NCBI RefSeq assembly: GCF_000238775.2
Contig: NZ_AFEJ02000002.1
Span: forward strand, 558,001-622,000
Source of the DNA: Acaryochloris sp. CCMEE 5410
Lineage (GTDB): Bacteria > Cyanobacteriota > Cyanobacteriia > Thermosynechococcales > Thermosynechococcaceae
Length of the DNA stretch: 64,000 nucleotides
Direction of reading: 5' to 3'
Numbering within the stretch: the first letter of the stretch is position 1; every line of letters begins with the position of its first letter. The notes beneath the pieces are model-generated. The model saw only the letters and a program-made list of their open reading frames with translations. It did no database searches and was not told the DNA's origin. Made by a program: the position numbers and the translations under genes. Shown one piece after another: positions 11,457 to 46,412 of the stretch.

Positions 11457-12419
11457 CTATTGGCCATCTTTGAGCCAATAGGGATCTTCCGTGAATACGA
11501 TATCGACTTCTGGAAATGGATGTAAATCTGCGATCGCATCCGCAAATTTCTGCCTCAACTGGTCTAGCTCTTGCACCCGATCAACCACAAACTCAGCAGG
11601 GACCAAGATCTGGATAAAGACATATAACACCCGTCCTTGCACCATCATCTGCAAATGAAAGCGATCGATGGGGTGTTTTTGAATACGGGCGACTTGGGAA
11701 ATGGTCTTGCGAATCTCACGATCCAGCTCACTTTCTGGGGCAACGCCCAGTAGCTGATTGACGCCTTCAAATACGGTGCGTAGAGGCAACGGGATAATTA
11801 CCAGCACCAGTATGGCAACCAGCAGCGGGTCAACGTAAGAAAGATAAATATTCCAGGAGGTGTCTTGCAGCAACAACGTCACCACAAAGGTCAACGCTAC
11901 CGCGCTACTGATACAGCCATCTACTGTCCAGTCTCGGGCTTCCACCTCCAGCAACGGTAAGTTTAACCGTTGAGCATAGCGATGCATCAAAATGGCAAAG
12001 GTAAAACACCCGACCGTTGATAGGGTCGCGTAGGCCAAAGCCAGGCCCACGACGAGATCTCGGCCACCATGTAGCAAGTCTTCTATCGCGGATACAAAGG
12101 CGAATAAACTAACCGATAGAACGATGATGCCTTTAATCGTATTAATAAAAGGTTCAAAGCCGTAATAGCCAAACTGGTAACGCCGACTGGGACCTTCCTG
12201 GATTAGGGCTGCCACCTTGAGACTGACAAAGCTCATGGTCATGGTCATCAGGGAATAGAACCCATCCAGCAAGATCGCGCCAGAATGAGTATAGAGTCCA
12301 AACACCCCACCCAGAACGGCAAAGACGGCGGATCCCATAATCGAAAGGGTCAAGGCCCACTGTTCTTGCGACCCCTGATCGGACGGGGTTGATGTTGTTG
12401 CTAGCATTTCGCTGTCCAT
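11457..12419 (-). CDS. Cation diffusion facilitator (CDF) family metal exporter
   Basis: 320 residues with six membrane segments. The metal site pairs expected for CDF proteins are visible: HSGAILLDGFYSL in TM2 (His and Asp) and EARDWTVDGCIS at TM5 (two Asp). The C-terminal cytoplasmic domain follows (IRKTISQVARIQKHPIDRFHLQM...), with the usual ferredoxin-like fold pattern. CDF proteins export Zn, Co, Fe or Mn by proton antiport. The gene starts 6 nt after the stop of a DNA methyltransferase gene and is probably the last gene of the long minus-strand series. The metal cannot be predicted from these motifs alone. Confidence 0.85.
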   Translation of the reverse strand: MDSEMLATTSTPSDQGSQEQWALTLSIMGSAVFAVLGGVFGLYTHSGAILLDGFYSLMTMTMSFVSLKVAALIQEGPSRRYQFGYYGFEPFINTIKGIIVLSVSLFAFVSAIEDLLHGGRDLVVGLALAYATLSTVGCFTFAILMHRYAQRLNLPLLEVEARDWTVDGCISSAVALTFVVTLLLQDTSWNIYLSYVDPLLVAILVLVIIPLPLRTVFEGVNQLLGVAPESELDREIRKTISQVARIQKHPIDRFHLQMMVQGRVLYVFIQILVPAEFVVDRVQELDQLRQKFADAIADLHPFPEVDIVFTEDPYWLKDGQ

Positions 12420-12425
12420 CTGTGC

Positions 12426-13706
12426 TTAGGGGGAGGACAGCCGCTCATACCCTGGCCATTCCAGCCAAACGACTTCTTCCCGTAATTGTTCGCCCGTGAC
12501 ACTGGATAAGCGAGTTCGAAACAGCTCTACGTCCCGGACTGTATAGCCAAGTTCTTCAGCAATGGCCGCCAACAGCTCTCCGGTACGAATTAAAACCTGG
12601 AGAAAAGAGGCTTGATCACCAACAACATAGGCTAGTTGGGCTCCCGGCTTGAGGATGGGGCGCAAATTCGCAAAATGGCGTTTCATGCCCCCAAAGTAGA
12701 GGGAGGTGACCCTATGATATAACTTCTCAAACCCAGAATCTTTGCCCAATTCTAGTCGGCGGCGTTCGATGGTGGCAGCGAGCTGGGTGACTTGCGGTGT
12801 ATTTGCCACCCATAAATCATCCCGATCCGCTGCAAAGGCATTGCGGGTATTGGAGCGCAGCAGCGACTGTTTGTAGGCTTTTAAGTCAGATGGATCCTTG
12901 AGAAACCCCAGCAGTACGGACTCTAACCGCGTAGTGCGGGTATAGTCTTTTTCATTGGGATAAGGGGGAGAGGTAATCACCGCGTCAATGGATTCTGGCT
13001 GCAGAATTCGGGTTAAATCTCGAGCATCTTGGTGATAACAAATCGTTGGAGGGGAGCAATCAATGGTTGCTAAGTCCGCTGCCATCGCCAAAACCTGCTG
13101 ATGCCAAGCCGTCAAGACAGGGGCATCTTGTTTTCGCTGGCGGCTAATACCCACTTCTGGGGCAAATCGGAGGTTGCTGGCGGTGTGGACGCTGGTATGG
13201 GCAAGGGCGAGCTGAAGAAGATGTCGTAGTGGCAGATTGGGTTCGGCATCGATAGCCTCTTGCAGGACCAGACATTTATGGAGGGGCAGATCGCCAATGG
13301 AGTTTTTAAGCAGGAGAGATCGCGCGTCTGGTGCCAGCTTTTTTAGGTGGGTTGTATTTTTAGGTGTAATGTCGGCAGCAATGCGATCGCAAATCCGTTC
13401 TGCTGCCCTTCGCACCTGATCCGGGTCAACAGTCCAGGTGGTTTTCGTCCGAGAAGCAAACCAGGACATGGGTGTCGCTTCGGTGCCAACGGCAGGAATA
13501 CCCTGCTTCTTGGCTTCTACAATGGTCGTCCCGGTACCGCAAAAGGGATCTAGCAGCGTGCTTTTTTCAGTCAGACCAAACTTATTGATATAGGTGCGAA
13601 CTAAATGGGGCGGAAAGGACAAGATAAAGCGATACCAATCATGGAAACTGCGATCGCACTCCTGCAAGCGGTTCAGGTTCAGGTCTTTGGGATTAGAAAC
13701 GTCCAT
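12426..13706 (-). CDS. Putative DNA N4-cytosine/N6-adenine methyltransferase
   Basis: 426 residues. The SAM-binding motif I is LLDPFCGTGTT (about residues 51-61) and the catalytic motif IV is SPPY (residues 246-249, in DAVITSPPYPNEKDY). The order I then IV, about 190 residues apart, suggests that the region between could hold target recognition. No restriction endonuclease is next to it, so it looks like an orphan methylase. Its ATG overlaps the stop of the preceding reductase gene by one base (TAATG), implying translational coupling, though a functional link with the lipid-type genes upstream is not obvious. The target sequence is unknown. Confidence 0.75.
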   Translation of the reverse strand: MDVSNPKDLNLNRLQECDRSFHDWYRFILSFPPHLVRTYINKFGLTEKSTLLDPFCGTGTTIVEAKKQGIPAVGTEATPMSWFASRTKTTWTVDPDQVRRAAERICDRIAADITPKNTTHLKKLAPDARSLLLKNSIGDLPLHKCLVLQEAIDAEPNLPLRHLLQLALAHTSVHTASNLRFAPEVGISRQRKQDAPVLTAWHQQVLAMAADLATIDCSPPTICYHQDARDLTRILQPESIDAVITSPPYPNEKDYTRTTRLESVLLGFLKDPSDLKAYKQSLLRSNTRNAFAADRDDLWVANTPQVTQLAATIERRRLELGKDSGFEKLYHRVTSLYFGGMKRHFANLRPILKPGAQLAYVVGDQASFLQVLIRTGELLAAIAEELGYTVRDVELFRTRLSSVTGEQLREEVVWLEWPGYERLSSP

Positions 13707-14539
13707 TAAGAGGATTGCGATCTCGTCTTCGTAACAATCCGATCAAAATACCAGTTCAGCCCTGGGGCTAAAACACTGTGCAGCTTGGCCAATAGCCCCA
13801 TTTCCAAACCAGGAGCCACCACAAACTGTTGGTGTTTAATCCCTTTGACAATCTCTTGGGCCACAGCTTCCGGCTGCCACATCTCCGCCGAGGCGGTGAT
13901 ATTTTTGGTCTCTGGAGGTTTGGTTTTATTCTCTGCTTCCAGTTGGGGTGTATCGGTATCGGGGGGATAAACAATCGATAAACCAATCCCAGTCCCTTTC
14001 AGTTCTCCCCTTAAAGATTCGGCCAACCCCCGCAGGGCAAACTTGCTAGGGCTGTAGGGGGTATAGCCAAAGAGTCCCACCAATCCTGCCCCTGATGAAA
14101 TCAACACAATATGCCCTTGCTGACGTTCCTCCATAAGGGGTAAAACCGCTTTGATCGCATACAAGGTGCCAAAGTAGTTGACCGCCATCGTTTGCTCAAA
14201 AACGTCTAGCGGTATTTCTTGAAAATAGCCAGGACGAGCCATGCCTGCAGCGGTAATTAAAACATCGGGTGGCCCCAGTTGAGTCGTTGCAGTTTGGATA
14301 GATTGGGTCAAGGCTTCTTGGTCAGCCACATCTGCTGTGAGCGCTATAACCTGCTGGTCTGACTGGACCTGAGCCGCTGTAATTTCTTGGACTGCGACGT
14401 CTAATTGACTCGGTGTACGAGCAATCAAAGAGAGATTGGCTCCCTGATTGGCAAGGAGGCAGGCAGTGGCTTTACCAATGCCACTCGATCCACCCGTAAT
14501 CATGACATGGCGCTGATTAAAGTCCATTCGCTGACTCAA
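13706..14539 (-). CDS. SDR reductase with 3-ketodihydrosphingosine reductase signature
   Basis: 277 residues. The classical SDR features are the cofactor loop TGGSSGIGKA (near residue 15), NYFG, catalytic SSG...YSPSK and a C-terminal tail. The diagnostic block is YPPDTDTP followed by ENxxKPxET, which matches the eukaryotic-type 3-ketodihydrosphingosine reductase (KDSR/TSC10) family. That enzyme reduces the ketone made by serine palmitoyltransferase using NADPH. Context agrees: an alpha-oxoamine synthase, ACP and acyl-AMP ligases lie just upstream on the same strand. The start may be TTG 14539 (AAGGA six bases upstream) or ATG 14527. The substrate assignment is inference; the reductase family is fairly certain. 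Confidence 0.8.
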   Translation of the reverse strand: MSQRMDFNQRHVMITGGSSGIGKATACLLANQGANLSLIARTPSQLDVAVQEITAAQVQSDQQVIALTADVADQEALTQSIQTATTQLGPPDVLITAAGMARPGYFQEIPLDVFEQTMAVNYFGTLYAIKAVLPLMEERQQGHIVLISSGAGLVGLFGYTPYSPSKFALRGLAESLRGELKGTGIGLSIVYPPDTDTPQLEAENKTKPPETKNITASAEMWQPEAVAQEIVKGIKHQQFVVAPGLEMGLLAKLHSVLAPGLNWYFDRIVTKTRSQSS

Positions 14540-14581
14540 AGATTGTCCTTAACGATAGAAATTGCCCTGGAACCCTCACCC

Positions 14582-15253
14582 TTAGCGATGAACAATTTGC
14601 CGTAATAGATAATTCCATATCTCTGGAATCGGGTGGCGAGGCTGGCTGAGATGGGAGGTTTCGCCCGTAAAAGCCATCTTCCATTCTCCCTGTTCACGAA
14701 CCAGTTTGGTTAACCCACAGGTGGGAAAGCGAACGGGAGGGCGTTGATTGATCAGCCCCCAAGCCGCTCCCTTGCCAATTAACTCATGGGTAACAATCAG
14801 CAACGGTCCTGAAAAGGTGCCCACCAATTGCTGAAGTGCTTCTCCGGCTCGAGCGAGGGCTTCTTCTTCCGTTTCTGGAAAAAGCGGAATAATTTGGCTC
14901 TGGTAATGTCGATCAACCTGAGGGAAGCGATCGGCCATTTCACCGACAGGCAGTGGTTCGGGACGGCTTTTGAACAGATGGGAACTCATATGTTCTCCTA
15001 ACCCAGCCTCTAAGTGGATGGGCAAATTTAGCTCCGTTGCTGTATGGGCGGCTGTCACAACGGTTCGTAAAAAAGGGGAAGCAACGATATGCGCAATGGA
15101 TTCTGCCTTAAGACACTGGGCCAAGTCCTGGGCCTCCACAACCCCTGCAGCCGAAAGGCCTGGATCATGGGGACGGTCTGCCTGTTTGCGCCAGCCTAAG
15201 TCAGCATAATCTTGCCGATGGCCATGCCGCGCAATCCATACTACTTCAGACAT
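14582..15253 (-). CDS. Histidine phosphatase superfamily protein
   Basis: 223 residues. The catalytic motif ARHGHRQDY lies at residues 7-15 and the second catalytic His is in IVTHELIG. RPHDPGLSAAG and SPFLRTVVTA are the other conserved phosphate-pocket segments. The closest family flavour is the TULA/phosphoglycerate-mutase-like phosphatase group. It lies 14 nt after the alpha-oxoamine synthase gene and 42 nt before the KDSR-like gene, all on the minus strand, so it is probably in the same transcript. A role in removing a phosphate from a lipid or intermediate is possible but not shown. Confidence 0.78.
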   Translation of the reverse strand: MSEVVWIARHGHRQDYADLGWRKQADRPHDPGLSAAGVVEAQDLAQCLKAESIAHIVASPFLRTVVTAAHTATELNLPIHLEAGLGEHMSSHLFKSRPEPLPVGEMADRFPQVDRHYQSQIIPLFPETEEEALARAGEALQQLVGTFSGPLLIVTHELIGKGAAWGLINQRPPVRFPTCGLTKLVREQGEWKMAFTGETSHLSQPRHPIPEIWNYLLRQIVHR

Positions 15254-15267
15254 ATGGGCACCCCCAA

Positions 15268-16602
15268 TTAGGCAGGGATTTCAGTCTCTATATGCGCTAG
15301 AGCAGTGGCAAGGGTCTCTACGGTTTGGCGAATTTGCGCCTCCGTATGGGTGCTGCTGAGGAAAAAGCGGAGTCTAGCTTCGTTTTGGGGCACCACCGGG
15401 AAGGTCATCGGCTGAACATTAATGCCTTGGTGAAATAGCTGCTGCGACAAATGCAGGGCTTTGAGGGTCTCACCCACCATCACGGGAATCACCGCTGAAC
15501 CATGACTAGTACCGGTATTGAGTCCTTTCTCTTTCGCCAAGTCGAGGAACAACTGAGCCCGAGCATGGAGCCGAGCCACGCGTTCAGGTTCTTGTTTCAA
15601 CACCTGCAACGCCGCCAAAGAGGCCGCCGTATTGGCAGGGGTAATGCCAATGCTATAGATAAATCCCGGTGCCGTACATTTGAGGTATTCAATCAGGGGC
15701 TGAGAACCGGCAATATATCCGCCACAGCTGGCAAAGGACTTACTCAGGGTGCCCATCCAAATATCAACGGTTTTAGGGTCAATGCCGAAATGCTCGCTAA
15801 TGCCTTGACCATGCTCGCCCAAAACACCAATCGAGTGAGCCTCATCCACCATCAGAAAAGCCTTGTGGCGTTCTTTGAGTTCAATAAATTTAGGTAATTC
15901 AGGAATGTCGCCATCGGCACTGTAGACCCCTTCAATCACCACCAGAACTCGCTGATAGCGATGACGATGCTGCTTTAAGAGTCTTTCTAGATCGGCTACA
16001 TCATTATGGGCAAAGGACATGGCCCGAGCGCCCGACAGCATACAGCCAAGAAAAATACTGTTGTGGCTATAGGCATCGTAAAGAATCAGGTCATTACGGC
16101 CAAATAAATGCCCAATGGTTGTGACGTTGGTACCGTGACCAGCGACATAGAGAACGGCGTCATCTACACCAATAAAGTCTGCAATTCCTTGCTCAAGCTC
16201 TAAATGTAAGGGTTTCTCACCAGAAACGGGGCGGCTGGCTGACACCGAAGTGCCGTAGCGATCAATGGCTTGTTTAGCGGTTTCAGAAACCGTCGGATGT
16301 CCGGCTAGTCCTAAATAGTTGTAGCTGGAGAAGTTGATCAGCTCTTTGCCATCAATGCGGGTGGTATCTCGGGCAATCCCTTCATGGACAGAGAAATAAG
16401 GGTTGCGGATATCATTCGCCTGCAGTTGGGCTTGTTGCTCTTTGAGCTGGAGATATTCAGGGTAGAGATCGAAGCGATAGTGCTCGGGAGGAATCTCAGG
16501 TTCGGCGTCGGCTTTTTTCTGCAATAATTCCGCCAGCAATTCGCGCTTTTCTTCTGCGGAGAGATGATCCAGGGAATTAGAGGAATTACTCATGGGCAAC
16601 AT
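15268..16602 (-). CDS. Alpha-oxoamine synthase, serine-palmitoyltransferase-like
   Basis: 444 residues (or 441 from ATG 16593). It is a PLP-dependent enzyme of the AONS/KBL/ALAS/SPT group: FSSYNYLGLAGHP near residue 90, YGTSVSASRPVSG, LYDAYSHNSI with the His that stacks on PLP, MVDEAHSIGVLG with the cofactor Asp, and the Schiff-base lysine in GTLSKSFASCGG. The SYNYLG form and an N-terminal extension of about 80 residues resemble serine palmitoyltransferase and PKS-linked AONS rather than BioF. Members condense an acyl thioester with an amino acid, losing CO2. The frame overlaps the ACP gene just upstream, so acyl-ACP is the likely acyl donor. The amino acid partner (Ser, Ala, Gly, cysteate) is not determined. 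Confidence 0.82.
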   Translation of the reverse strand: MLPMSNSSNSLDHLSAEEKRELLAELLQKKADAEPEIPPEHYRFDLYPEYLQLKEQQAQLQANDIRNPYFSVHEGIARDTTRIDGKELINFSSYNYLGLAGHPTVSETAKQAIDRYGTSVSASRPVSGEKPLHLELEQGIADFIGVDDAVLYVAGHGTNVTTIGHLFGRNDLILYDAYSHNSIFLGCMLSGARAMSFAHNDVADLERLLKQHRHRYQRVLVVIEGVYSADGDIPELPKFIELKERHKAFLMVDEAHSIGVLGEHGQGISEHFGIDPKTVDIWMGTLSKSFASCGGYIAGSQPLIEYLKCTAPGFIYSIGITPANTAASLAALQVLKQEPERVARLHARAQLFLDLAKEKGLNTGTSHGSAVIPVMVGETLKALHLSQQLFHQGINVQPMTFPVVPQNEARLRFFLSSTHTEAQIRQTVETLATALAHIETEIPA

Positions 16603-17041
16603 TATGCTCTGACAACATCGCGTTCAGCAGGCCATCTACTTCATCGTCACTCAGTACATCCAATTTGGATAGGAGTTCATCGGCATCTGCGGGTAATGCT
16701 GAAGTAGTGGGAGAACTGCCTTCATTATCGGCTACTAGGTGCTCTGATAATTCACGAATATTGGAATAATCTAGAACCAGCATGGGATCCAAACGGCGAC
16801 CCAGAAAATGTTCTAGTTCACCGGAAATATTGACGACTTCTACAGAGTTCATTCCGTAATCAATGAAATCCACATCGATATCAATTTCCTCTGGACTCAT
16901 TTCCAAGGAAGTTGCCAAGTGTTTTTTTAACCAGGCTTGAATGTCTGCTAATTTAGGGGAAGTCTCCAGGGGCGAAACAGCGCCCTGAGGCTGCGCTTCC
17001 GCTACAGCGACCGTGCTTTGATAGTTATCCTGGATTGGCAT
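16586..17041 (-). CDS. Acyl carrier protein dedicated to the lipid-type cluster
   Basis: 151 residues. The central carrier domain (about residues 30-105) has the phosphopantetheine site in DYGMNSVEVVN, with Ser as attachment residue, preceded by a long helix (AWLKKHLATSLEMSPEEI). Two extensions make it longer than a housekeeping ACP: a low-complexity N-terminus and a C-terminal helical tail (LLSKLDVLSDDEVDGLLNAML) that resembles the docking-type helices at the ends of modular megasynthases. It overlaps the start of the alpha-oxoamine synthase gene by several bases, so the two products are probably made together and may dock. Confidence 0.85.
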   Translation of the reverse strand: MPIQDNYQSTVAVAEAQPQGAVSPLETSPKLADIQAWLKKHLATSLEMSPEEIDIDVDFIDYGMNSVEVVNISGELEHFLGRRLDPMLVLDYSNIRELSEHLVADNEGSSPTTSALPADADELLSKLDVLSDDEVDGLLNAMLSEHNVAHE

Positions 17042-17407
17042 ATTGTTTTTACTCTAATTGCTTTAGACAACAGGTTAAACCGAATTGTGAATTTAAGTTA
17101 AAACTTCGGTTCATCATAAAAGATTTATTTAACAGCAACAAGGTGGCATGTAGAGATTAATCAATTGGCCCATTCTTTAAAAGTCTCAGAAACTAAATGT
17201 TCCAATCTCCTTAGTAATGCCGCTGATCGGTCTATCCCCTTGCTGTTATAGGGTAGTTATAACTTAGTCCAGAGAGGGGAAAAGTGATCAAGGTTGCGTT
17301 AGTCGGAACCGACTCATGGTAAGCATGGCTGATGTCCTTCCTGAGATAAGTGTGTAAGTTGAGACTGACTTTTTGCCTGCAAAAGTTCCAAGAATTGCTG
17401 TTTTCTT
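17042..17407. other. Intergenic region inside the lipid-type cluster
   Basis: 366 bases between the stop of the acyl-AMP ligase gene and the ACP start. No open frame is convincing. It is long enough to hold an internal promoter for the ACP-to-CDF part of the cluster, which could therefore be a separate transcript, but I could not identify clear -35/-10 boxes. Confidence 0.45.
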
Positions 17408-19276
17408 TTAGGCGCGGGGCACGCTCTTGGCCACGCTCTCTAAGTCTCCCTCTAGAAATTTGGCTCTACAGGTAAACCGCTGAATTTTACCACTAGAGGT
17501 CTTGGGAATACTGCCGGGTTTGAGCAACAACAGGGCATGAATCTGCAGGTCATGGTCTTTGGCAACAGCTCGACGGATTTGAGTGAGAATATCTTTTTCG
17601 ACGGCGGCAGGTTCTGACTCTCCCGTCAGGCTGGTGGGGGGGACAAAATTATTGAGCTGAGGCGGTTGGGAAGAGGGCTTCTTGCCATTTTTTTGATAGC
17701 GGTTGATATAATTCCGCTCCAATTCCGCCACCACGACTAGCCGTTCTTCCCCGGCTTCCGTAATCGAAAATGCTGCAGCACAATTGGGTCGAATACCCGG
17801 ATAGCTTTGGACGACGGTCAACTCAATGTCCTGGGGATAATGATTACGGCCATTGATAATAATCACGTCCTTTAAGCGACCGGTCACAAACAGCTCGGAG
17901 CCCACCAAAAAGCCATAGTCTCCGGTGCGTAAAAAGGGGCCAGCTCCGGTATCGGCTAAATGAGCCTGAAAGGTTTGCCGAGATACGTCCGATTGCCGCC
18001 AGTATCCCTGGGCAATGCTTTGGCCAGACACCCAAATTTCGCCGACTTCTTCGGCTGGACATTGTTGGAGGGTTTCAGGATTAGCAATCACAATTTCTTG
18101 ACCTTGGAGGGCAGTGCCGCAGCCCACTAAGGTGCGAGCATCGGTATCTCCTAAGTGAGCAGAGACGACTTGATGTTGTTCTAAGGCTGCCCCTTGGACC
18201 GTTTTAAGCGCAGGTTTGGCCTGTCTCTGTCCCCCAGAAACGATCAGGGTGGCTTCGGCAAGGCCATAGCAGGGGAAAAAGGCTTCAGGCCGAAATCCGC
18301 AGGGAGCGAACTTGGTGGCAAAATCTTCGAGGGTTTGAGCACTGATGGGTTCTGCGCCATTAAAGGCCACCCGCCAAGAGCTTAGGTCCAGGGTTTCAAG
18401 CTGCTCTGGCTTGATCTTGCGCAGACATAAATCATAAGCAAAATTTGGCCCGCCGCTAGTGGTGGCTCGATAGCGAGAAATGGCTTGGAGCCAGCGAATC
18501 GGACTTTGCAAAAACATAAAGGGAGACATCAGGGCTACGGGGAATCCGCCGTATAAGGGCTGCAAAATCCCGCCGATTAAACCCATATCATGGTAGGGCG
18601 GTAGCCAAATCACCCCTTGGCACTGGGAACTGTGCTCAAAGCATTGGTGAATCAGCGCCAGGTTCTGCAACAGATTGTGATGGGTAATCATCACCCCTTT
18701 GGGCGTTGCGGTTGAGCCAGAGGTGTATTGAAGAAAGGCTAAATCTTGGCCCTGGGGATGAATCTCTTGCCAAGCTTGACGGGGTTCGGTGACGCTAAGG
18801 CTATCGGTGGCCAACCACTTTAGGGCCCTTAACTCTGGGGCATCAATCAACTGTCGTTCTAGCTTCGACAGAATTTGAGAGGTGGTCAGGGCAAAAATGG
18901 CTTGGGAGTCCGCGATCACACTCTGCAAGCGCATCAGGGAGCGATTCGGGCGGGGTGGATAAATGGGGACCGCCGTAACGCCTGCATAGAGGCAGCCAAA
19001 GAAAGCGGCAACATACTCTAATCCGGGCTGATAGACCAGTAGAGCGCGATCACCGGGTTGACAGGCAGACTGTAGCGCAGCTGCGATCGCACGGGCTTTG
19101 GCATCCAACTCCGCATAGGTCAGATGGAGGGTTTCTTCCTCGCCATCCACTAAAAAGGTGAAGCCTTGATGGCTAGGCTGGTGAGCGGCTCGATAGCGGA
19201 GTAAATCCACCAAACTGTCCACCTTTGGCGGACCCGTTGCTTCGACCTTGGCATCCCAATTTTTTGTTTCAGCCAC
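17408..19276 (-). CDS. Fatty acyl-AMP ligase (FAAL)-type adenylating enzyme 1
   Basis: About 622 residues if started at GTG 19276 (GGAG six bases upstream); ATG 19288 is the next choice, and the frame is open to 19396. Adenylation motifs are present: FLQYTSGSTATPKGVM, WLPPYHDMGLIGG, SGGPNFAYDLC, FNGAEPIS, PCYGLAEATL, LRTGDYGF and the terminal PKTSSGKIQR lysine motif. The combination HDMGLIGG and GGPNFAYDLC is typical of long-chain fatty acyl-AMP ligases, which load acyl groups onto an ACP instead of CoA. It lies between the hydroxylase genes and the ACP gene. Confidence 0.85.
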   Translation of the reverse strand: MAETKNWDAKVEATGPPKVDSLVDLLRYRAAHQPSHQGFTFLVDGEEETLHLTYAELDAKARAIAAALQSACQPGDRALLVYQPGLEYVAAFFGCLYAGVTAVPIYPPRPNRSLMRLQSVIADSQAIFALTTSQILSKLERQLIDAPELRALKWLATDSLSVTEPRQAWQEIHPQGQDLAFLQYTSGSTATPKGVMITHHNLLQNLALIHQCFEHSSQCQGVIWLPPYHDMGLIGGILQPLYGGFPVALMSPFMFLQSPIRWLQAISRYRATTSGGPNFAYDLCLRKIKPEQLETLDLSSWRVAFNGAEPISAQTLEDFATKFAPCGFRPEAFFPCYGLAEATLIVSGGQRQAKPALKTVQGAALEQHQVVSAHLGDTDARTLVGCGTALQGQEIVIANPETLQQCPAEEVGEIWVSGQSIAQGYWRQSDVSRQTFQAHLADTGAGPFLRTGDYGFLVGSELFVTGRLKDVIIINGRNHYPQDIELTVVQSYPGIRPNCAAAFSITEAGEERLVVVAELERNYINRYQKNGKKPSSQPPQLNNFVPPTSLTGESEPAAVEKDILTQIRRAVAKDHDLQIHALLLLKPGSIPKTSSGKIQRFTCRAKFLEGDLESVAKSVPRA

Positions 19277-19301
19277 GTTATACTCCATCCTGACTACAGG
19301 A

Positions 19302-20084
19302 TTATGAATTCGTTTTCGATTTGAACAGCCCTTGTAACCGCTGGTCCCATTTCTTTTGATTGGTCTCGGCATCCTTGATATAGGGAGACCAGGCAATCAG
19401 CTGAATAATAAATTGATTCAGCAGGGATGCAGGGAATTTGAGGGGACGGACAATATCAACAAAAAGAACCACCCGAACTTCGTCGGTATTATTCCAGGCT
19501 TCGTGCTCGAAGGAGTCATCGAACACGAGGCTCTTGCCTTCTTGCCAATGGCGGACATCTTCTCCCACTCGAATCCCACAGTCTGAGGCAGCCTCAGGAA
19601 TGATCAAGCCCAAATGGTAGCGCAGCACCCCATTAAACGGACCTCGGTGGGGTGGGATTTGCTTTTGGGGCAGCAAAATCGAGAAAAAAGCCGTCTTCAC
19701 CCCGGGGATACTGGACAACAGCTTGGCCGTTTCCGGGCAGAGGCGACAGTTTTGCTCTGCCGTCACTCCATAGGCATAGAAGAAAAAGGTTTTCCAGCGC
19801 TGATCATTGGTGATGTTGTACTGATCCGGGGAAATATCTTGAAAATTTGGTAGGTCGTCTCTATATTTAAGAATCTCATCGAGTTCCTTGCGAATCACCT
19901 GCCAGTTATCTTCGAAGGTTTTGACCCATGCAAACTGATCAGGATCGAAGAAGGTTGAGTTGCCCACTAAAGAAGAGGTTCGGATGATCCGCTCCAACTG
20001 ACGCAACAAGCCTTCTCCTGCTTTGAGGGCAACCTCACGGTTCTTGGTTTTGAAATCGGTGTAAAACTGGCTCAATGCACTCAT
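19302..20084 (-). CDS. Aspartyl/asparaginyl beta-hydroxylase (LpxO)-family oxygenase, copy C
   Basis: 260 residues. The Asp_Arg_Hydrox-type core is clear: FFSILLPQKQIPPHRGPFNG with the first iron-binding His, RYHLGLIIPE, CGIRVGEDVRHWQEG, then FDDSFEHEAWN with the second iron His and RVVLFVDIVRP carrying the 2-oxoglutarate-binding Arg. A conserved NCRLCPET motif upstream is shared with the two neighbouring paralogs. Family members are Fe(II)/2-oxoglutarate hydroxylases acting on aspartyl residues or on lipid acyl chains (LpxO). The setting, between acyl-AMP ligases, favours a lipid or acyl substrate. It is last of three tandem paralogs. Confidence 0.82.
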   Translation of the reverse strand: MSALSQFYTDFKTKNREVALKAGEGLLRQLERIIRTSSLVGNSTFFDPDQFAWVKTFEDNWQVIRKELDEILKYRDDLPNFQDISPDQYNITNDQRWKTFFFYAYGVTAEQNCRLCPETAKLLSSIPGVKTAFFSILLPQKQIPPHRGPFNGVLRYHLGLIIPEAASDCGIRVGEDVRHWQEGKSLVFDDSFEHEAWNNTDEVRVVLFVDIVRPLKFPASLLNQFIIQLIAWSPYIKDAETNQKKWDQRLQGLFKSKTNS

Positions 20085-20157
20085 AAGTTAGGGCTTAGAA
20101 ATCAACAATCGGGCGCATTAACACTCCAGCCAATGTACACCATGATCTGTCACGACG

Positions 20158-20928
20158 CTATTGGGTCCCTTTCGCAGCCAATACGGCATCCAATCGCTTG
20201 TCCCATTTCTTTTGATTGGCGGCTGCGCCTTGAATATAGGGGGACCAAGAGAAGAGTTGAATCACGGCTTGGTTCAGCAGAGAGATGGGAAATTTGACGG
20301 GTCGGACCACATCCAAGAACAGGACAACGCGCACACTATCCGTGTCGTTCCAGGCCGTATGTTCGAAGGAATCATCGAAGACGAGACTTTGGCCTTCTTG
20401 CCAATGGCGAATATCCTTACCGACACGAATACCGCATTGGTCTGTGGCCTCCGGCACCATCAACCCGAGGTGATAGCGCAGCACCCCGTTATAGGGCCCC
20501 CGATGAGGCGGGATGCGCTGATGGGGCAGCAAAATCGAGAAAAAGGCAGTTTTCAACCCCGGAATTTGTTCGATCAGCCGGGTGGTTTCCGGGCAGCGAT
20601 CGCAATTCTTTTCGGCTTTAATCCCGTAGGCGTAGAAGGCGAACATTTTCCACTGGGTATCTTTGGTGAGGTCGGCGTCATACTCCACCAACTCTTCAAA
20701 ATTGGGCAATGCCTCTTGATATTGAAGAACCTGTTCCAGTTCCTGACGAATGGTTCGCCAGTTCTGTTCCAAAAGAGGGACCCAGCTAAATATTTGGGGG
20801 TCAAAGAAGGTTTTGTGGCCCACAAGGGACGAACGCGAAACCAAACCCCCAATATGCTTGCGCATTAAAGTTTCGAGAAATTCTTTCACAGGACTGTATT
20901 CCAATGATGTGTTGACTATATTAATCAA
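20158..20928 (-). CDS. Aspartyl/asparaginyl beta-hydroxylase (LpxO)-family oxygenase, copy B
   Basis: 256 residues. It is very similar to copy C through the core (IPPHRGPYNGVLRYHLGL, CGIRVGKDIRHWQEG, FDDSFEHTAWN, RVVLFLDVVRP) and has NCDRCPET. Both iron His and the 2-oxoglutarate Arg are kept. Its N-terminus (INIVNTSLEYSPVKEFLETL) differs from the other two. It overlaps the end of copy A by 8 bases; the first codon is TTG with AAGGA immediately upstream, so a slightly later start is possible. The same fatty-acyl or lipid hydroxylation role is inferred. Confidence 0.8.
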   Translation of the reverse strand: MINIVNTSLEYSPVKEFLETLMRKHIGGLVSRSSLVGHKTFFDPQIFSWVPLLEQNWRTIRQELEQVLQYQEALPNFEELVEYDADLTKDTQWKMFAFYAYGIKAEKNCDRCPETTRLIEQIPGLKTAFFSILLPHQRIPPHRGPYNGVLRYHLGLMVPEATDQCGIRVGKDIRHWQEGQSLVFDDSFEHTAWNDTDSVRVVLFLDVVRPVKFPISLLNQAVIQLFSWSPYIQGAAANQKKWDKRLDAVLAAKGTQ

Positions 20929-21730
20929 TCCTTAACGTTTGATGCCTAACGCTGGCATCAGAATGTTTCATAATCGCGCCTAGGCGCTGTTCCCACTGGT
21001 TTTGAAGCTTTTTAGCATCCTGGACAAAAGGCGACCAGGAAATTAGGCGAATCAGGGTCTGATTGAGCAGCGAGACAGGAAATCGCAGGGGGCGGATCAC
21101 ATCAATAATCAGGACAACCCGCACCTCGTCGCTATCGTTCCAAACCTCATGGGGAAATCGATCATCAAAGACTAACCCCTGCCCCTGCTGCCAATGGCGA
21201 ATTTGGTCTGCCACCCGGAGACGACATTGAGTTTCTGGTTGAGGCACTTTCAGGGCCAGATGGTACCGAACCACCCCCTTAAAGACCCCGCAATGCTCGG
21301 GAATATGTTTATGGGGCAGCAGGATAGAGAAAAAGGCCGTTTTCATGCCCGGAATCGATTCAATCAGCTGGCTGGTTTGAGGACAGCGGGCGCAGTTCTG
21401 GGCCGCTTTCACCCCAAAGGCATAGAAGAAGAAGGTCTTCCAGCGATCGTCTTGGGTGAGACGATACTGATCCGGCGATAAATCTTGGAAATTGGGCAGC
21501 TCATCTTGATATTGGAGAATATCCTCCAATTCTTGGGCAATGGTGGGCCAGTTATGTTCTAGCTGCTTGACCCAGGGGAACGGTTGAGTCTCGATAAACG
21601 GCGTATTGCCCACTAGGGAGTGGGACTCGATTAGACCTTCGAACCGCCGCAGGAGCTGCTCGGCTGCCTTGAGAAAGCGTTGGCGAATTTTGGCCTGCCA
21701 ATTTCCATCCGGTTGACTGAGAACATTCAT
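20921..21730 (-). CDS. Aspartyl/asparaginyl beta-hydroxylase (LpxO)-family oxygenase, copy A
   Basis: 269 residues from ATG 21728-21730. Most divergent of the three: the first iron-ligand block reads IPEHCGVFKGVVRYHLAL (Cys where the others have Arg), the second FDDRFPHEVWN, with RVVLIIDVIRP after it, and the shared motif NCARCPQT. Iron His residues and the 2-oxoglutarate Arg remain, so it should be active, perhaps on another position or substrate. It is the first of the three hydroxylases after the upstream acyl-AMP ligase gene, separated from it by 73 nt. Confidence 0.8.
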   Translation of the reverse strand: MNVLSQPDGNWQAKIRQRFLKAAEQLLRRFEGLIESHSLVGNTPFIETQPFPWVKQLEHNWPTIAQELEDILQYQDELPNFQDLSPDQYRLTQDDRWKTFFFYAFGVKAAQNCARCPQTSQLIESIPGMKTAFFSILLPHKHIPEHCGVFKGVVRYHLALKVPQPETQCRLRVADQIRHWQQGQGLVFDDRFPHEVWNDSDEVRVVLIIDVIRPLRFPVSLLNQTLIRLISWSPFVQDAKKLQNQWEQRLGAIMKHSDASVRHQTLRID

Positions 21731-21803
21731 AGCACTGGAGTTTTGGGGTAGACAATCGGTCCTTGGCTTGCACCAAGGAGGACAATATTCGGGGAACTTT
21801 AAA

Positions 21804-23597
21804 TTACGGTTGATTCGCAGCCATAGGCGCCATCAAATCGGAGATATTACCTTGGGTTTCTTGTTTCCACTCGGCAACCGGTTGAAAGCTGCTTTCTAAA
21901 AATTTAGTCCGACAAGCACGGCGTTGAATCTTGCCACTAGAGGTTTTGGGAATTGCACCTGGCTTGAGGAGCAATACGGCATAGACTTCAGCCATATGGT
22001 CCTCGGCAATGGCTAAACGAATCGCTCCGATAACCTCTTCGACGGGGAGGCGTCGGAAAAAGTTTCGTTCCACCTCATGGACAATCACCAAATGCTCTTC
22101 ACCATTCAGGGGAATGGAAAAAGCGGCACCATGATTGGGTCGGAGAGCAGGATGACATTGCTCCACGGTCTGTTCAATCAGCTGGGGATATTGGTTCCGA
22201 CCCCAGATAATCATCAAATCTTTAATCCGGCCCGTGATATAAACTTCGCCATCCTGAACAAAGCCTAAGTCTCCGGTCCGTAGGAAGGGGCCTTCTCCGG
22301 TATCGGCTAAGCGGGCTTGAAAGGTCTCGGCGGTGACGTCGGGTTTGTTCCAGTAGCCTTTGCCCACGCCATCCCCGGCAACCCAAATCTCACCGACTTG
22401 ATTTTCCGCACATTTAGTCAGGGTATCGGGATTTGCGATCGCAACCTGATCCCCTAACCACATACGACCACAGCCGATAATCGCCTGGGCCTTGTCTGAC
22501 GCTGGCTCTACAGGAACCACCTTGTTTTCGGCCAAAGCCGTACTGTCAAGATAACGAACGATGGGGGGCTCCGACTTTAGGCCCCCAGAGATAAAGAGGG
22601 TGGTTTCAGCCATACCATAGCAGGGATAAAAGGCTTCTCGCCGGAAACCACAGGGACCAAAGAAGTCCACAAATTGATCCAGGGTATCGGCTTTGATCGG
22701 TTCTGCCCCGGAAAAGGCCACTTCCCATTTGCTTAGATCCAACTGGTCTCGCTGCTGCGGCTTCACCTTCTGGCAAAGTAAATCGTAGGCAAAATTGGGA
22801 CCGCCGCTGGTGGTTGCCCCATATTTGGATACGGCCTCTAACCACAAAATCGGTTTTTGGATCAGGGCAATCGGCGACATCAGGGTGACCGGGAAGCCAC
22901 CATATAAAGGTTGGAGGACGCCCCCGACCAGCCCCATATCGTGGAATAGGGGCAGCCAAATCACCCCCTGACTCTGGTCGGAATGGCCAAAGCTCTCATA
23001 GATCATCTTGGAGTTATGGAGCATATTGCCATGGGTGACCATCACCCCTTTCGGATCTCCGGTGGAACCCGAGGTGTACTGCAAGAAGGCGAGGGTATCG
23101 GTCTCTAACTCCGGCTGAGTCCAGGCAGAGGCTTGATCCGTGGGTACGGTATCCGTTGCCAGCCAGGTGAGCTGATTCAAATACGGGGCTAAATCAGGAT
23201 TCTTTTTGAGCTGGTTTTTCAGATGCTCTAAAAATCCTGCCGTGGAGACCAGCACCGTGGCTTCTGAGGCTTTGGCCCGGATTTGAAGTTTGGCAATGGC
23301 TTCGGGCTTCCGGGGTGGATTATCGGTGACGGCCACCACTCCGGCATAGAGACAGCCAAAAAACGCGGACACAAATTCCAGTCCGGCATCGTAGGGATAA
23401 ACGACCAGAACGTTGGTGCCTCGGGCGGTTAGGGCCTGTATTGCGGCTGCAATTGCCCGAGCCTGCAAATCCAAGGTGGCGTAGGTGAGGGTCCCGGATT
23501 CGTTTTTGCCGTCGGCCAAAAAGGTATAGGCCGTTAAATCAGACTGGAGCTGAGACCGCTCTCGCAGTAAGTCGACTAGGGTTGAAGGTTGGGTCAT
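21804..23597 (-). CDS. Fatty acyl-AMP ligase (FAAL)-type adenylating enzyme 2
   Basis: 597 residues from ATG 23597. Motifs parallel the other ligase: FLQYTSGSTGDPKGVMVTH, WLPLFHDMGLVGG, SGGPNFAYDLL, FSGAEPI, PCYGMAETTLF, LRTGDLGFV, GRNQYPQLIEQTVE and the terminal PKTSSGKIQRR. These are the adenylation motifs with the FAAL-type HDMGLVGG/GGPNFAYDLL signature. It starts the minus-strand cluster and would activate a free fatty acid as acyl-AMP for transfer to a carrier protein. With only one ACP gene nearby, both ligases may load the same ACP with different acids, or one may feed an N-acyl transfer. The ribosome binding site is weak. Confidence 0.86.
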   Translation of the reverse strand: MTQPSTLVDLLRERSQLQSDLTAYTFLADGKNESGTLTYATLDLQARAIAAAIQALTARGTNVLVVYPYDAGLEFVSAFFGCLYAGVVAVTDNPPRKPEAIAKLQIRAKASEATVLVSTAGFLEHLKNQLKKNPDLAPYLNQLTWLATDTVPTDQASAWTQPELETDTLAFLQYTSGSTGDPKGVMVTHGNMLHNSKMIYESFGHSDQSQGVIWLPLFHDMGLVGGVLQPLYGGFPVTLMSPIALIQKPILWLEAVSKYGATTSGGPNFAYDLLCQKVKPQQRDQLDLSKWEVAFSGAEPIKADTLDQFVDFFGPCGFRREAFYPCYGMAETTLFISGGLKSEPPIVRYLDSTALAENKVVPVEPASDKAQAIIGCGRMWLGDQVAIANPDTLTKCAENQVGEIWVAGDGVGKGYWNKPDVTAETFQARLADTGEGPFLRTGDLGFVQDGEVYITGRIKDLMIIWGRNQYPQLIEQTVEQCHPALRPNHGAAFSIPLNGEEHLVIVHEVERNFFRRLPVEEVIGAIRLAIAEDHMAEVYAVLLLKPGAIPKTSSGKIQRRACRTKFLESSFQPVAEWKQETQGNISDLMAPMAANQP

Positions 23598-24379
23598 AGG
23601 GTCAAAATCTGCAGTAGCAAAATCCTAAATTTGAGCATATAAACCCGCTAGTACTTACATCACAATGAAGGCGGATCTGCATCACATTACTGTAGTTTAG
23701 GGATGCTTTAGACTTCAAGTATTCTGGCGTACAGTTGGCAGTGAATGGCTCTTCCTTGGACGTGCCATTGCCCCTCTAGTTCCTTCTAAAAGATGGATTT
23801 GACGATCAACTGTGACGGTCAATTTTGTTGCATATGCGACCCAGAAATCACATTTTCACTGTCCATACTAGCGATAGTTAATGATGAGTGAGGATGCGTT
23901 TTTGGCTTAAGTCCCAGGCAGGGAATTCCTCAGTTTTGAAGCTGTTGCATCGCACTTCTCAGACCTTGCTGCCAAGACAAATGCTCCCTAAAAAGGGATA
24001 ATGGCAACAAAATACAAGGAGGATTAAGCCTCTAAAAGTCTGTTCACCTTGGAGAAATCAACCCTTAGAAATAATGACTTCCCTGGATTCACGAGGGACA
24101 AGTTTAGATCTAAAAAAACAATCCATTTCTATTGGTTAATCTAGGCTTTGATTGTCCAGGCCACAGAATGATTCTACTCAAAACCTCAACGCGTTTGCAT
24201 AGAGAGATGATGCAGATAACTTTTTCCCAAAGTAAAAAGAATGATTGGAGAATTGGCGATCAGCATCTCTAGGCAGAGTATTAGACCCATCAGTGGAGAA
24301 GGAGACGAATCTTGCAGATATCAAAGTTGTTATTCCCCCATTCAACCGCTCATGCCAAGTCTCATCTTGCTGCAAACCA
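23598..24379. other. Divergent intergenic region, likely promoter area
   Basis: About 780 bases between the acyl-AMP ligase gene (minus) and the flippase-like gene (plus). I see no supported gene; the few short open frames lack binding sites and motifs. It should contain the promoters of both transcription units, although I cannot name the boxes. The frame of the plus-strand gene is open from 24245, but the extra residues look non-coding. Confidence 0.5.
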
Positions 24380-25393
24380 ATGAATAAGTTTTGGCATAAG
24401 AAAACGTTTGTCCGTCTCTTAATGCTGTTTTGCGTTGGACTTGGACTCGCTTTTCTGTTTCAAAAAATCAATCTCCAAGGCCGTGATTTGCTAGAAGCAT
24501 TTCAACGGTTTAGTCCCGAAATGCTCGTGCTAATGCTAGGGGTTACATTAGTGCAAATGGTGTTTCAGGTAACTCGCTTATGGGTGCTTTGTCCCCAAGC
24601 GGCTGGGGTGAGTTGGGCACAAGCGGCGAATACCTATGTATCAGGCCAGTTTATTGGCAATTTTGTGCTTAGCCAAGCTGGACATGCCGTCAAAATTGCC
24701 CTGTTGCGCAAGGATAAAGATGCGAAGGGCCGCAAGATTGATGCGGCTGAAGCCACGGCGGTTATTTTAGTGGATAAGGTGCTGGATGTTGGCATCTTGG
24801 TCACCTTAGCAGTGCTATCCGCCTTACAAGTCTCTGTCGGGCTACCCCAGGTTGATTGGTGGGAGAAAGGCATTATTGTTCTGATCGGCATTCCTTTTCT
24901 GGGGATTGCCTTGTGGGCACTTCAGCGAAGTTTGCGCCAACGGTTCCCCAAACTACGGCAGTGGCTTCGTAAGTTTAAGGTCGGACTGGCAGTGATTCGT
25001 AATCCTCTCCAAATTCGCAATGCTGCGGTCATGGACTTGGGGGATTGGTTTACGGAATGTCTGCTGCTGCAGCTATTGTGTATGGCTCAAGGCCATGTTC
25101 TGTCCTTACCACAGCTTTTAATTTGTCTGTTTATTCTGAATCTGGGGCTGACGGTGCCAACCACGATGGCGAACTTGGGCACCTATGAAGCGGCCTTGGC
25201 GTTTTCTCTGAATGGTATGGGGGTTCCTTTGGCACAAAGTGTCGTGATTGCCACGATGTTTCATGCCTACCAGCTGTTTGGATTACCGGTGTGGATGTTT
25301 ATCCAAAAATTGAGTGTTCGCTTCTCACCCAAGTTGGATTCTGCGGTGCCTATTCCTGTCCCTCAAGAGCGGCCTAAAGTTACGTCCAAGTAA
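24380..25393 (+). CDS. Lysylphosphatidylglycerol-synthase-TM/flippase-like membrane protein
   Basis: About 337 residues from ATG 24380 (MNKFWHKKTFVRLL...), which is the best start because the upstream part of the frame is non-membrane and unusual. Seven or eight hydrophobic segments carry the LPG_synthase_TM/UPF0104 pattern: VTRLWVLCPQAAG, QFIGNFVLSQAGHAVKIALLRKD, ATAVILVDKVLDVG, and near the end VPTTMANLGTYEAALAFSL. In MprF the corresponding domain flips modified lipids across the membrane; the aminoacyl-transferase domain is absent here. Placed divergently to a lipid-type cluster, it could export or flip the product, but that is inference. Confidence 0.75.
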   Translation: MNKFWHKKTFVRLLMLFCVGLGLAFLFQKINLQGRDLLEAFQRFSPEMLVLMLGVTLVQMVFQVTRLWVLCPQAAGVSWAQAANTYVSGQFIGNFVLSQAGHAVKIALLRKDKDAKGRKIDAAEATAVILVDKVLDVGILVTLAVLSALQVSVGLPQVDWWEKGIIVLIGIPFLGIALWALQRSLRQRFPKLRQWLRKFKVGLAVIRNPLQIRNAAVMDLGDWFTECLLLQLLCMAQGHVLSLPQLLICLFILNLGLTVPTTMANLGTYEAALAFSLNGMGVPLAQSVVIATMFHAYQLFGLPVWMFIQKLSVRFSPKLDSAVPIPVPQERPKVTSK

Positions 25394-32224: not shown

Positions 32225-32438
32225 ATCGAGAGAGGGGACACTAAGGGATAGAGGCTCGCCTCTCGTGCTTGGAGAAAGTGGAGAGTTTTAGAGCGATGCT
32301 TTGACAGGGGGCCGAAACAGGTCAGAAATGAGTTGGGAAATTGATTGGCTCCAAATAATAATCTAACTCGCATCAGGAATTAGGGTTGAAAGTATACCTT
32401 TGTGGGCATGCTCAAAAGTAATGGACCTTGTGGGAAAA

Positions 32439-41348: not shown

Positions 41349-41495
41349 AAAAAGTTGTCTATCTCATCGCCCTATTTACTAGGCTAATTTCTTCAGATAA
41401 GAGAGTTGAAATCTGATCTCATTTTCTGGTGTTCATTCCCTATATTTATCAGCCCAAAAGATTCATCTATTGCTGAGGCCAAGGCTTAGCAGAAT

Positions 41496-44400: not shown

Positions 44401-46412
44401 ATGATATTGAAGCAGGCTATGCCTTTGGTCAATTAGCCTTAACCCTCTCAGATCGGTTCGGCAATCGAGAAATCAACACCCGTGTTCTTTTGATGGTGGG
44501 GGCATTAACATTGCCCTGGCAGCAGCACTTGAATACGGCCATTCCGCTTCTGCAACAGGGCTATATCGATGGCCTGGAATCTGGCAGTCTAGAAGCGGCG
44601 GCCCTGAGTCATTACTACGAAAGTCAATCTGCATATTTAGTGGGTCAAGAGCTGGGGGACTTTGAGCAACAAACTCGGCTCTACAGCGAACATATTCGTC
44701 AAATTAAGCAGGCGGTCCATCTGCAGAATAACGAGCTTTTCCGTCAAGTTGCCTTGAACTTGATGGGAGAGGGAGACGATCCTTGGGCGTTAGCTGGAGA
44801 GGCGTTTGATGAAACGGTGATGCTGCCACAGTATCAAGCCACCAATAATCTGTTGGGATTATTCTGCTTCCATCTTCACAAACTGATGCTGTGCTATTGG
44901 TTTAATCAACCAGAGCAAGCCATAGCCCATGCCCGGCAAGGAGTGGACTATCTATCTGGGGTAACGGCTCAGGCAACCGTTCCAGTCTTCTACTTTTATG
45001 ATTCATTGGCGAGGCTATCTGAGTCAGTCTCTGATAGCCATCTAGCCACCCCAGACCAGTCAGATTCCAGCTTAGATTTAGAGGTCGTTCACGCGAATCG
45101 TGCCAAGTTAGAGCATTGGGCAAAATTTTGCCCAGAGAACTTCCAGCACAAACTGGACTTAATTAACGCAGAGTATCACGCTCGCCTGGGGCAAAAGCTG
45201 GAAGCGATAGAGCATTATGACCGCGCCATTCAAGGGGCGAAGGAAAACCAGTATATCCAAGAAGAAGCCCTTGCCCATGAACTGACCGCCAAGTTTTATC
45301 TGAATTGGGGAAAAGAACAGGCGGCAGTCGGTTACTTGCAGGCAGCTTACTACTGCTATGCCCGTTGGGGAGCCACCGCTAAAACGGATGAATTGGAATG
45401 GTGTTATCCCGACCTCCTCCAACCGATTCTCCAACAGGCCAGTCAAGCATCCACCTCTTTGGGCACTTTAAACAATATTGCACCGCTGAAGCTGTCCATT
45501 CATTCGTCCACCAGCACATCTGAACCGTCCACCCAAGGCGTTAATCAAACTCTGGATCTCGCTGCCATTTTGAGATCTGGCCAAGCGCTGTCTACCAGCC
45601 TTGATCTGGATGAGCTGCTAGAAAAACTGGCTGGAATAGGGCTACGGACGTCTGGCGCAGATAGATTGAATCTTTTGCTACCGGAAGAGGACGGTTCTTG
45701 GCAAATCAGAGTCAACGCTACGCCTGAGACCACACAACTGGATGCTACTCCTCTGACCGCTCCTACTAACCTACCGATTCAACTGATTCAATACGTCAAA
45801 CATACCCAGGAAGTTCTGTGTATTGATGGCTTGGAAGCAGAATTGCCCATCATTGATCCGTACCTGCAAGGCTGTCAACCTCGGAGTGTCCTTTGTCTTC
45901 CTCTCCTGCATCAAGGGAGCCTCAACGGGCTTCTGTATCTAGAGAATCAAGCAATGGCTGGGGTATTTACTTGCGATCGCATCACCGTCCTTAACTTCCT
46001 CTGTTCCCAAGCTGCGATTTCCCTAGAGAATGCCAAACTCTATAAATCGGCAACCCTCAAATCCTCCATCATCGAATCGGCGATTGATGGCATGGCGATA
46101 TTAGAAGATGGCAAATATGTGTATTTGAATGAAGCCCATATCTCTCTATTTGGCTATGAAGTAGAAGAGTTGAAGGGGCAAAGCTGGGAGAAACTCTATT
46201 CCCCATTAGAGGTAGAACGCTTAAGGGAAACAGCTTTCTCATCATTGGCAAAGAAAAGGCAATGGACGGGAGAAGCAACCGCAACTTGCAAAGATGGCAG
46301 TTCTTTCGCTGAAGAAGTCAGTGGGCGTAAGCACAGAATCGGGGATGTATGGCTCAAAGAAAAACGGGTCAAGGACAATAGATCCTGTACCCGAATCAAA
46401 AACTTGTCATGA
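41496..46412 (+). pseudogene. Giant hybrid kinase 2, 5' part, interrupted by ISKra4-type element
   Basis: 1,638 residues: 1,609 native, then about 29 read from the inserted element before a stop. Domains as in paralog 1: Ser/Thr kinase ([10 protein letters not shown] near residue 134), ATPase (GFSGIGKT near 336, FLDDLQWVD), helical region, GAF (about 1,352-1,515) and the start of a PAS domain that ends at EEVS. Similarity to paralog 1 is high in the kinase, ATPase and GAF parts. The IS lies in the PAS domain with a 9-bp target duplication. The 5' product, if made, would lack the histidine kinase half. Confidence 0.9.
46314..46322 (+). repeat. Target-site duplication, left copy (GAAGTCAGT)
   Basis: The nonamer GAAGTCAGT lies immediately before the left end of the element and is repeated exactly at 47808-47816 after its right end, the expected footprint of a recent insertion. 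Confidence 0.92.

Follow-up and report, generated by a model that had tools for sequence, protein, structure and literature searches.

Sphingolipids are best known from plants and animals. Within a window of 64,000 nucleotides from Acaryochloris sp. CCMEE 5410 (contig NZ_AFEJ02000002.1, positions 558,001 to 622,000), whose genome is cyanobacterial and comprises 8.09 Mb, we identified a single minus-strand gene run, reading from position 23597 to 13706 of the window, that encodes a fatty acyl-AMP ligase (FAAL1), three oxygenases, a second ligase (FAAL2), an acyl carrier protein (ACP), an alpha-oxoamine synthase (AONS), a histidine phosphatase and a short-chain dehydrogenase/reductase (SDR). Judged from its genes, this run very probably encodes a form of the SgaABC pathway to sphingoid bases that operates without a polyketide synthase (PKS), with the most likely product being 3-ketosphinganine that is reduced to sphinganine. 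In the pathway that we propose, one FAAL would adenylate a free fatty acid and load it onto the dedicated ACP; the SgaB-type pyridoxal phosphate (PLP) enzyme would join the acyl-ACP to an amino acid (L-serine being the most likely one) in a decarboxylating condensation that yields 3-ketosphinganine; and the SDR, a predicted 3-ketodihydrosphingosine reductase (KDSR), would convert this into sphinganine. The role of the other FAAL is probably to activate a second chain for N-acylation, and at least one of the OlsC/LpxO-like oxygenases would hydroxylate the position next to the former carboxyl carbon. We infer the chain lengths and the order of these steps, as well as N-acylation, a head group, export and the parts that the histidine phosphatase and a nearby flippase-like protein would play.

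All of these genes had been named in an original prediction made from the DNA letters, and our open reading frame (ORF) listing together with Pfam and NCBIfam scans placed each of them where it had been put, the flippase-like gene being divergent from the run (Table 1). Gaps between the genes are short or negative, with the exception of 366 bases between FAAL2 and the ACP, and the ACP and AONS genes overlap by 17 bases. A scan of 20 ORFs of the window surrounding the run, and of four larger window ORFs, found no ketosynthase. Because the gene order is kept across genomes of the same genus, the run is more than a chance assembly: AONS is present in all six same-genus genomes searched (97% identical in the Acaryochloris loci L051 and L052), and the order ACP, AONS, histidine phosphatase, KDSR is retained in five of them, with the sixth (G006) showing ACP, AONS and KDSR, genes broken by stops and no detected histidine phosphatase. 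FAAL2 and an oxygenase lie upstream of the ACP in all three same-genus genomes whose contigs extend that far, and a methyltransferase follows KDSR in four of the six (it was not found beside KDSR in G005 and G006). The histidine phosphatase was not found at AONS in the other cyanobacterial loci listed.

In order to place the synthase, a search was made with a ten-sequence alignment (the query and nine relatives). It gave 80 named loci, the top-scoring ones among at least 579 relatives, and phylum counts taken from them are therefore not frequencies. Among 156 domain sequences compared, 97 family rows, some of which are copies from one genome, scored at least 516 bits with the family profile, and every other AONS scored 364 bits or less. 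The trees contained curated serine palmitoyltransferases (SPTs; loci above the NCBIfam cut-offs), named BioF, KBL and ALAS genes, cyanobacterial BioF-like genes and eukaryotic SPT2 fragments, with long, redundant and near-duplicate rows omitted. The synthase family formed a separate clade in all trees (97–100% support). Three trees united the window synthase with a Pseudomonas putida homologue (L112; 100/97 to 100/99), placed it outside the canonical bacterial SPT clade and made the SgaB-type clade the sister of eukaryotic SPT2 (100/99), although this deep placement is borderline. The P. putida enzyme, which is 56% identical to the window synthase over the aligned part, adjoins a protein of 2529 amino acids in an SgaAB-like arrangement, and it stands in here for SgaB of P. 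fluorescens MYb115: according to PMC12134224, that enzyme (PfSgaB) forms 3-ketodihydrosphingosines from acyl-CoA and L-serine and hardly uses alanine or glycine. Residues H180, D253, H256, S287 and K288 are kept in 97 of 97 family rows, R412 in 96 (with one gap) and T285 in 95; the roles of H180, D253, H256, T285, K288 and R412 as PLP-binding or catalytic residues are those that we take over from SPT. An AlphaFold model of the synthase (pLDDT 84) had serine-bound SPT (3a2b) as its top fold match, with a Z-score of 50.5. Taken as a whole, the sequence comparisons largely support an SgaB-type AONS distinct from both BioF and the canonical bacterial SPTs. A Caulobacter-type SPT, to which the original prediction had likened the enzyme, has to be given up for the window synthase given its position outside the canonical clade.

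The reductase carries the cofactor motif TGGSSGIG, the active site YSPSK (YxxxK) and both stretches that had first marked it as a KDSR, YPPDTDTP and ENKTKPPET, and its best match in the PDB is TSC10 (8jat, 9.5e-31). Used as a query, TSC10 scored 105–134 bits with 36 window-type KDSR rows from 32 genomes; the best of 19 other SDRs retrieved from the same genome reached 88 bits and the others at most 68, and no SDR from the set's other genomes exceeded 69 bits. The pattern ENxxKPxxT is present in TSC10 and 35 of the 36 window-type rows and in none of 33 other SDR rows, and TSC10 falls inside the cyanobacterial KDSR clade in a joint group with 100/99 support, where a long branch leaves its exact place unsure. 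An assignment as a TSC10/KDSR-type SDR is thus well supported by sequence comparison. Seven further bacterial genomes searched held no window-type KDSR (best score 96 bits). We also considered the SDRs near proteobacterial AONS loci as SgaC homologues and rejected them, since they score at most 48 bits with TSC10 and miss the motif.

Synthase and reductase occur together far beyond the genus. We surveyed 291 genomes of the class with limits of E<=1e-110 for AONS and E<=1e-60 for KDSR, both set after the score gap had been seen: each was found in 34 genomes and both in 29 (Fisher 9e-30, a test that, like those that follow, ignores shared ancestry beyond the genus count). Leaving out the own genus gave 27 of 284 genomes with AONS, 27 with KDSR and 22 with both (2e-23), and counting by genus gave 16 shared among 19 and 18, respectively, in 130 genera (1e-15). 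The two genes are adjacent in 13 of the 29 genomes and stand apart or on other contigs in 16, so linkage alone does not explain the co-occurrence. KDSR without the family AONS was seen in five genomes (G031, G518, G567, G582 and G584). In G031, G518 and G582 (loci L296, L294 and L295), KDSR adjoins a FAAL-AONS fusion and a second FAAL; the AONS of these fusions, at 33–36% identity, groups with the canonical bacterial SPTs (100/97). One kind of reductase thus pairs with two distinct SPT-like synthases, and in these three genomes the synthase has apparently been replaced beside it.

The related loci show how acyl chains may be supplied. In the set of 80 named loci, AONS has a FAAL but no ketosynthase nearby in 40 cases (30 of which are planctomycete), a ketosynthase in 19 and neither of the two in 21, many of the latter being on short contigs. 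Six loci, all of them cyanobacterial, have a window-type KDSR close to AONS. Planctomycete loci have a FAAL and no ketosynthase at AONS in 30 of 35 cases, often as a single protein of about 1150 amino acids, whilst ketosynthase matches lie near AONS in 12 of 14 proteobacterial loci, with neighbours of about 2500 amino acids in Pseudomonas and other Proteobacteria. The cyanobacterial architectures comprise a free FAAL, ACP and AONS (the window), a FAAL-ACP-AONS fusion (L034) and PKS-ACP-AONS fusions (L033, L035); further FAAL-AONS fusions, in which the ACP was unscored, occur in L081 and L298-L300. A second FAAL lies beside the core in L055, L081, L294-L296, L299 and L300, and this recurrence suggests a second acyl chain. 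For the first chain, the simplest reading is transfer from FAAL to ACP to synthase, since a ligase and ACP that feed SPT are established for Caulobacter. Spt-like proteins had been counted in 138 planctomycete metagenome-assembled genomes (MAGs) from the Black Sea (PMC11334938), and the planctomycete candidates are therefore not new as such. A separate observation concerns L174, on a Sinorhizobium sp. C101 megaplasmid whose record lists only six features: a 51% identical AONS is encoded at positions 12001-13212, where no genes are listed.

A number of observations weigh against a sphingoid-base route. The pathway is known here from genes, and sequence alone cannot tell which amino acid the synthase chooses. 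The best NCBIfam model for the synthase is bioF (371 bits against a cut-off of 426, unmet), and the SPT models NF047599, NF047600 and NF047603 reach 293 of 500, 348 of 640 and 233 of 670 bits, none attaining its cut-off; the P. putida SgaB homologue gives the identical pattern, with bioF first and all models below cut-off, and the bioF rank is therefore weak evidence against SPT activity. The approximately unbiased (AU) test did not reject uniting the family with BioF, KBL and ALAS (p 0.09), and rejected a union of eukaryotic SPT2 with bacterial SPTs only marginally (p 0.04). Near-ties followed the top fold match (ThaOS, Z 48.4; KBL, Z 48.0), and human SPT2 reached Z 41.5, with eukaryotic SPT2 chains ranking below several BioF and ALAS entries, so that the sister relation seen in the trees is not mirrored by the fold. 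For the reductase, the fold model (pLDDT 76) returned generic SDR matches in the Foldseek top 50, with TSC10 absent; moreover, no window-type KDSR was found in 11 planctomycete and four proteobacterial AONS genomes (best score 97 bits), from which 15 SDR loci were retrieved, all without ENxxKPxxT, and the pairing is therefore not general to the synthase family. Within the survey, AONS occurs without KDSR in G014, G017, G050, G460 and G465, and KDSR with no family AONS seen in G567 and G584, both of which are fragmented assemblies. Relatives of LpxO are found in 35 genomes that lack AONS. Within 12 kb of AONS, none of the 80 named loci (many of them short) holds a relative of the flippase-like protein, and no ceramide synthase was identified, with no genome-wide search made for one.

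All three oxygenases score higher with the OlsC model (256–293 bits, cut-off 450) than with the LpxO model (115–146 bits, cut-off 500), neither cut-off being reached. One option would be hydroxylation of the N-acyl chain to give a 2-hydroxy-ceramide, the other hydroxylation of acyl-ACP before condensation: C2 of the fatty acid becomes C4 of the sphingoid base, and alpha-hydroxylation at this stage would therefore give the C4-hydroxyl of phytosphingosine. It is from the oxygenases alone that we infer a product that is perhaps hydroxylated; this part of the original prediction stays where it was, whilst its sphingoid-base pathway has gained from the phylogeny, the genome-wide co-occurrence and the proven family of the SgaB homologue. 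It is possible, though rather unlikely, that the oxygenases together with FAAL1 belong to a hydroxy-lipid pathway of their own (for example for 2-hydroxylation of another lipid), which would simply lie next to the sphingoid-base genes, an arrangement that is compatible with our assignment of synthase and reductase. The LpxO relatives in AONS-free genomes fit such a pathway, as does the finding that the KDSR-bearing loci L056, L081 and L091 have no LpxO near AONS. Against it, the oxygenases share one tight minus-strand run with FAAL2, in relatives as well, and LpxO lies near AONS in L033 (G052), L058 and L068. Relatives of oxygenase c (E<=1e-60) are present in 23 of 34 AONS genomes versus 35 of 257 without AONS (Fisher 8e-11), and those of at least 320 bits outside the genus, a threshold set post hoc after a score gap had been seen, are confined to seven of 284 genomes, six with AONS (Fisher 3e-6) and all seven with KDSR.

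Clearly less likely is a different alpha-oxoamine metabolite, for which the synthase would use something other than serine (for instance alanine, leading to 1-deoxysphinganines, or cysteate, leading to capnine-like sulfonolipids) and the resulting ketone would be reduced by the SDR. Other AONS families do use other amino acids, and the fold ranks separate SPT poorly from KBL or cysteate transferases; yet the clade member with demonstrated activity uses serine almost exclusively (PMC12134224), the reductase is of the KDSR kind, and in three genomes this same kind has a canonical SPT-clade synthase as its partner. That the synthase is a second BioF for biotin, beside an unrelated lipid-hydroxylation and loading cluster, we regard as very improbable, the NCBIfam rank and the AU test notwithstanding, since the genome has a separate BioF-like gene elsewhere (G000:C1, 40%) that falls in the cyanobacterial BioF-like group, the family is a clade of its own, and its members co-occur with KDSR and fuse to FAAL or PKS domains. 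The original prediction had taken a synthase grouping with BioF or with PKS tailoring enzymes, together with a reductase outside KDSR, as signs against a sphingoid base: in the trees the synthase does not group with BioF and the reductase lies within KDSR, with the AU test indecisive on the BioF side, and although the synthase does belong to a PKS-associated group, this group has demonstrated SPT activity. A sphingoid-base route thus remains our preferred reading.

The related clusters also bear on a head group and on export. Glycosyltransferases resembling GT28/MGDG synthase occur in L081, L298, L299 and L300, some with scores near or below the cut-off, and GT4 enzymes in L033, L084, L294 and L295; the window run holds no such gene. 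In L056 (6668-13875; a Pseudanabaenales MAG), the genes for FAAL, ACP-AONS and KDSR are directly preceded by one for a myo-inositol-1-phosphate synthase, a hint of an inositol-phosphate head group. Both the glycosyltransferases and this synthase fit a lipid that carries a head group, and the flippase-like protein of the window is a possible lipid translocator. As a side observation, plasmid p3 of Planktothrix agardhii (L171) encodes a PKS-AONS with FAAL, glycosyltransferases and an alpha/beta hydrolase, possibly a glycosylated variant.

Table 1. Genes of the run and its immediate neighbours, with window positions, strand and supporting matches.
Gene	Position (strand)	Length (aa)	Assignment	Support
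FAAL1	21804..23597 (-)	597	Fatty acyl-AMP ligase	PF00501 and DIP2-like C-domain
Oxygenase a	20921..21730 (-)	269	LpxO/OlsC-like 2-oxoglutarate-Fe oxygenase	PF05118 5.5e-53; OlsC model 256 bits, LpxO 115
Oxygenase b	20158..20928 (-)	256	LpxO/OlsC-like oxygenase	PF05118 4.3e-57; OlsC model 266 bits
Oxygenase c	19302..20084 (-)	260	LpxO/OlsC-like oxygenase	PF05118 1.7e-59; OlsC model 293 bits
FAAL2	17408..19396 (-)		Fatty acyl-AMP ligase	PF00501 2.5e-70; FAAL fused to AONS in relatives
ACP	16586..17041 (-)	151	Dedicated acyl carrier protein, GMNS attachment site	PF00550 2.4e-14; fused to AONS in relatives
AONS	15268..16602 (-)	444	SgaB-type alpha-oxoamine synthase, class I/II PLP enzyme	Trees, residues, fold
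Histidine phosphatase	14582..15253 (-)	223	Histidine phosphatase superfamily protein	PF00300 1.4e-18
KDSR	13706..14539 (-)	277	TSC10/KDSR-type SDR, predicted 3-ketosphinganine reductase	
Flippase-like	24245..25393 (+), divergent	382	Flippase-like membrane protein, LPG_synthase_TM	PF03706 3.3e-27; TIGR00374 slightly below cut-off
Methyltransferase-like	12426..13706 (-)		DNA-methyltransferase-like protein	PF01555; PADLOC MTase_II 118 bits

The DNA-methyltransferase-like gene overlaps the KDSR stop by one base and probably stands outside the pathway. TTG starts are listed for FAAL2, where the listed start overlaps oxygenase c, and for KDSR; these are mechanical, with internal ATG codons being likelier. 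For both FAALs the top NCBIfam model is that of the nonribosomal peptide synthetase/PKS protein PRK05691, followed by FAAL models, all below cut-off. Neither a tRNA nor an Rfam match at the gathering score was found within the window. Farther along, at 32400-46412, lie two giant proteins of 2982 and 1638 amino acids, both of which combine Ser/Thr kinase, AAA and GAF/PAS domains; histidine kinase and receiver domains are present as well in the longer one.

If our reading is true, cyanobacterial sphingolipids gain the genetic basis that they have been missing, and the question is now directly testable. The original prediction had held that sphingolipids are no hallmark of cyanobacteria, which has to be qualified: two structures, from Scytonema and Moorea, are reported in PMC8895605, where genes are not given for them, and the same source states that no sphingolipids were detected in Nostoc punctiforme, whose only such enzyme is a BioF homologue. 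In the open-licence literature we found no paper on FAAL-loaded SPT or sphingoid-base synthesis in bacteria, or on sphingolipid genes of Acaryochloris or other cyanobacteria. The run would add FAAL and ACP as a loading route for a synthase family that has been described in print with a PKS. That a eukaryote-like synthase and a eukaryote-like reductase go together also bears on the origin of the eukaryotic sphingolipid enzymes. A speculative and rather unlikely extension is that the first two eukaryotic steps share bacterial ancestry with such clusters: SgaB-type synthases, and not canonical bacterial SPTs, would then be the bacterial sister of the catalytic eukaryotic SPT subunit, the cyanobacterial reductases would be the nearest KDSRs among the bacteria compared, and cyanobacteria would be the only sampled group that has both.

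Comparison with known systems places the run between several of them. With the OlsC/LpxO acyl 2-hydroxylases, the oxygenases have the Asp_Arg_Hydrox domain in common, OlsC being the best curated model, but here three tandem copies that fall below both cut-offs stand in a sphingoid-base cluster. The Bacteroides enzyme BT_0972 (PMC9278070), to which we liken the reductase by description, is likewise a bacterial 3-ketosphinganine reductase of the SDR family, but is not clustered with SPT in Bacteroides. In the AasR-AcpR-SPT system of Caulobacter, as set out in PMC9386255, a dedicated ligase places a free fatty acid on a dedicated ACP beside the synthase, which it feeds, much as we propose here; by contrast, the window synthase lies outside the canonical SPT clade, its ligase is of the FAAL type, set apart from AasR by description, and the run includes a TSC10-type KDSR. 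The eukaryotic enzymes SPT (LCB2/SPTLC2) and KDSR (TSC10) offer the sister clade of the synthase and a reductase of the same SDR type and motif, but the window cluster has no LCB1-like partner, and an ACP-bound donor is expected rather than a CoA-bound one. The closest system appears to be SgaAB(C), described in a paper (PMC12134224) whose text, as far as available, does not contain the term "cyanobacteri". SgaC is given there as a KDSR homologue proposed for the reduction step in Pseudomonas, so that a KDSR beside a carrier-bound acyl supply is not as singular as had been supposed. The window differs in having two FAALs and a free ACP instead of the iterative type I PKS of SgaAB, in adding three oxygenases, a histidine phosphatase and a flippase-like gene, and in a reductase type that a search of four proteobacterial AONS genomes did not reveal; what the two have in common is a clade that unites the synthase with the SgaAB-like P. 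putida homologue, a dedicated acyl-donor system and a KDSR-type reduction.

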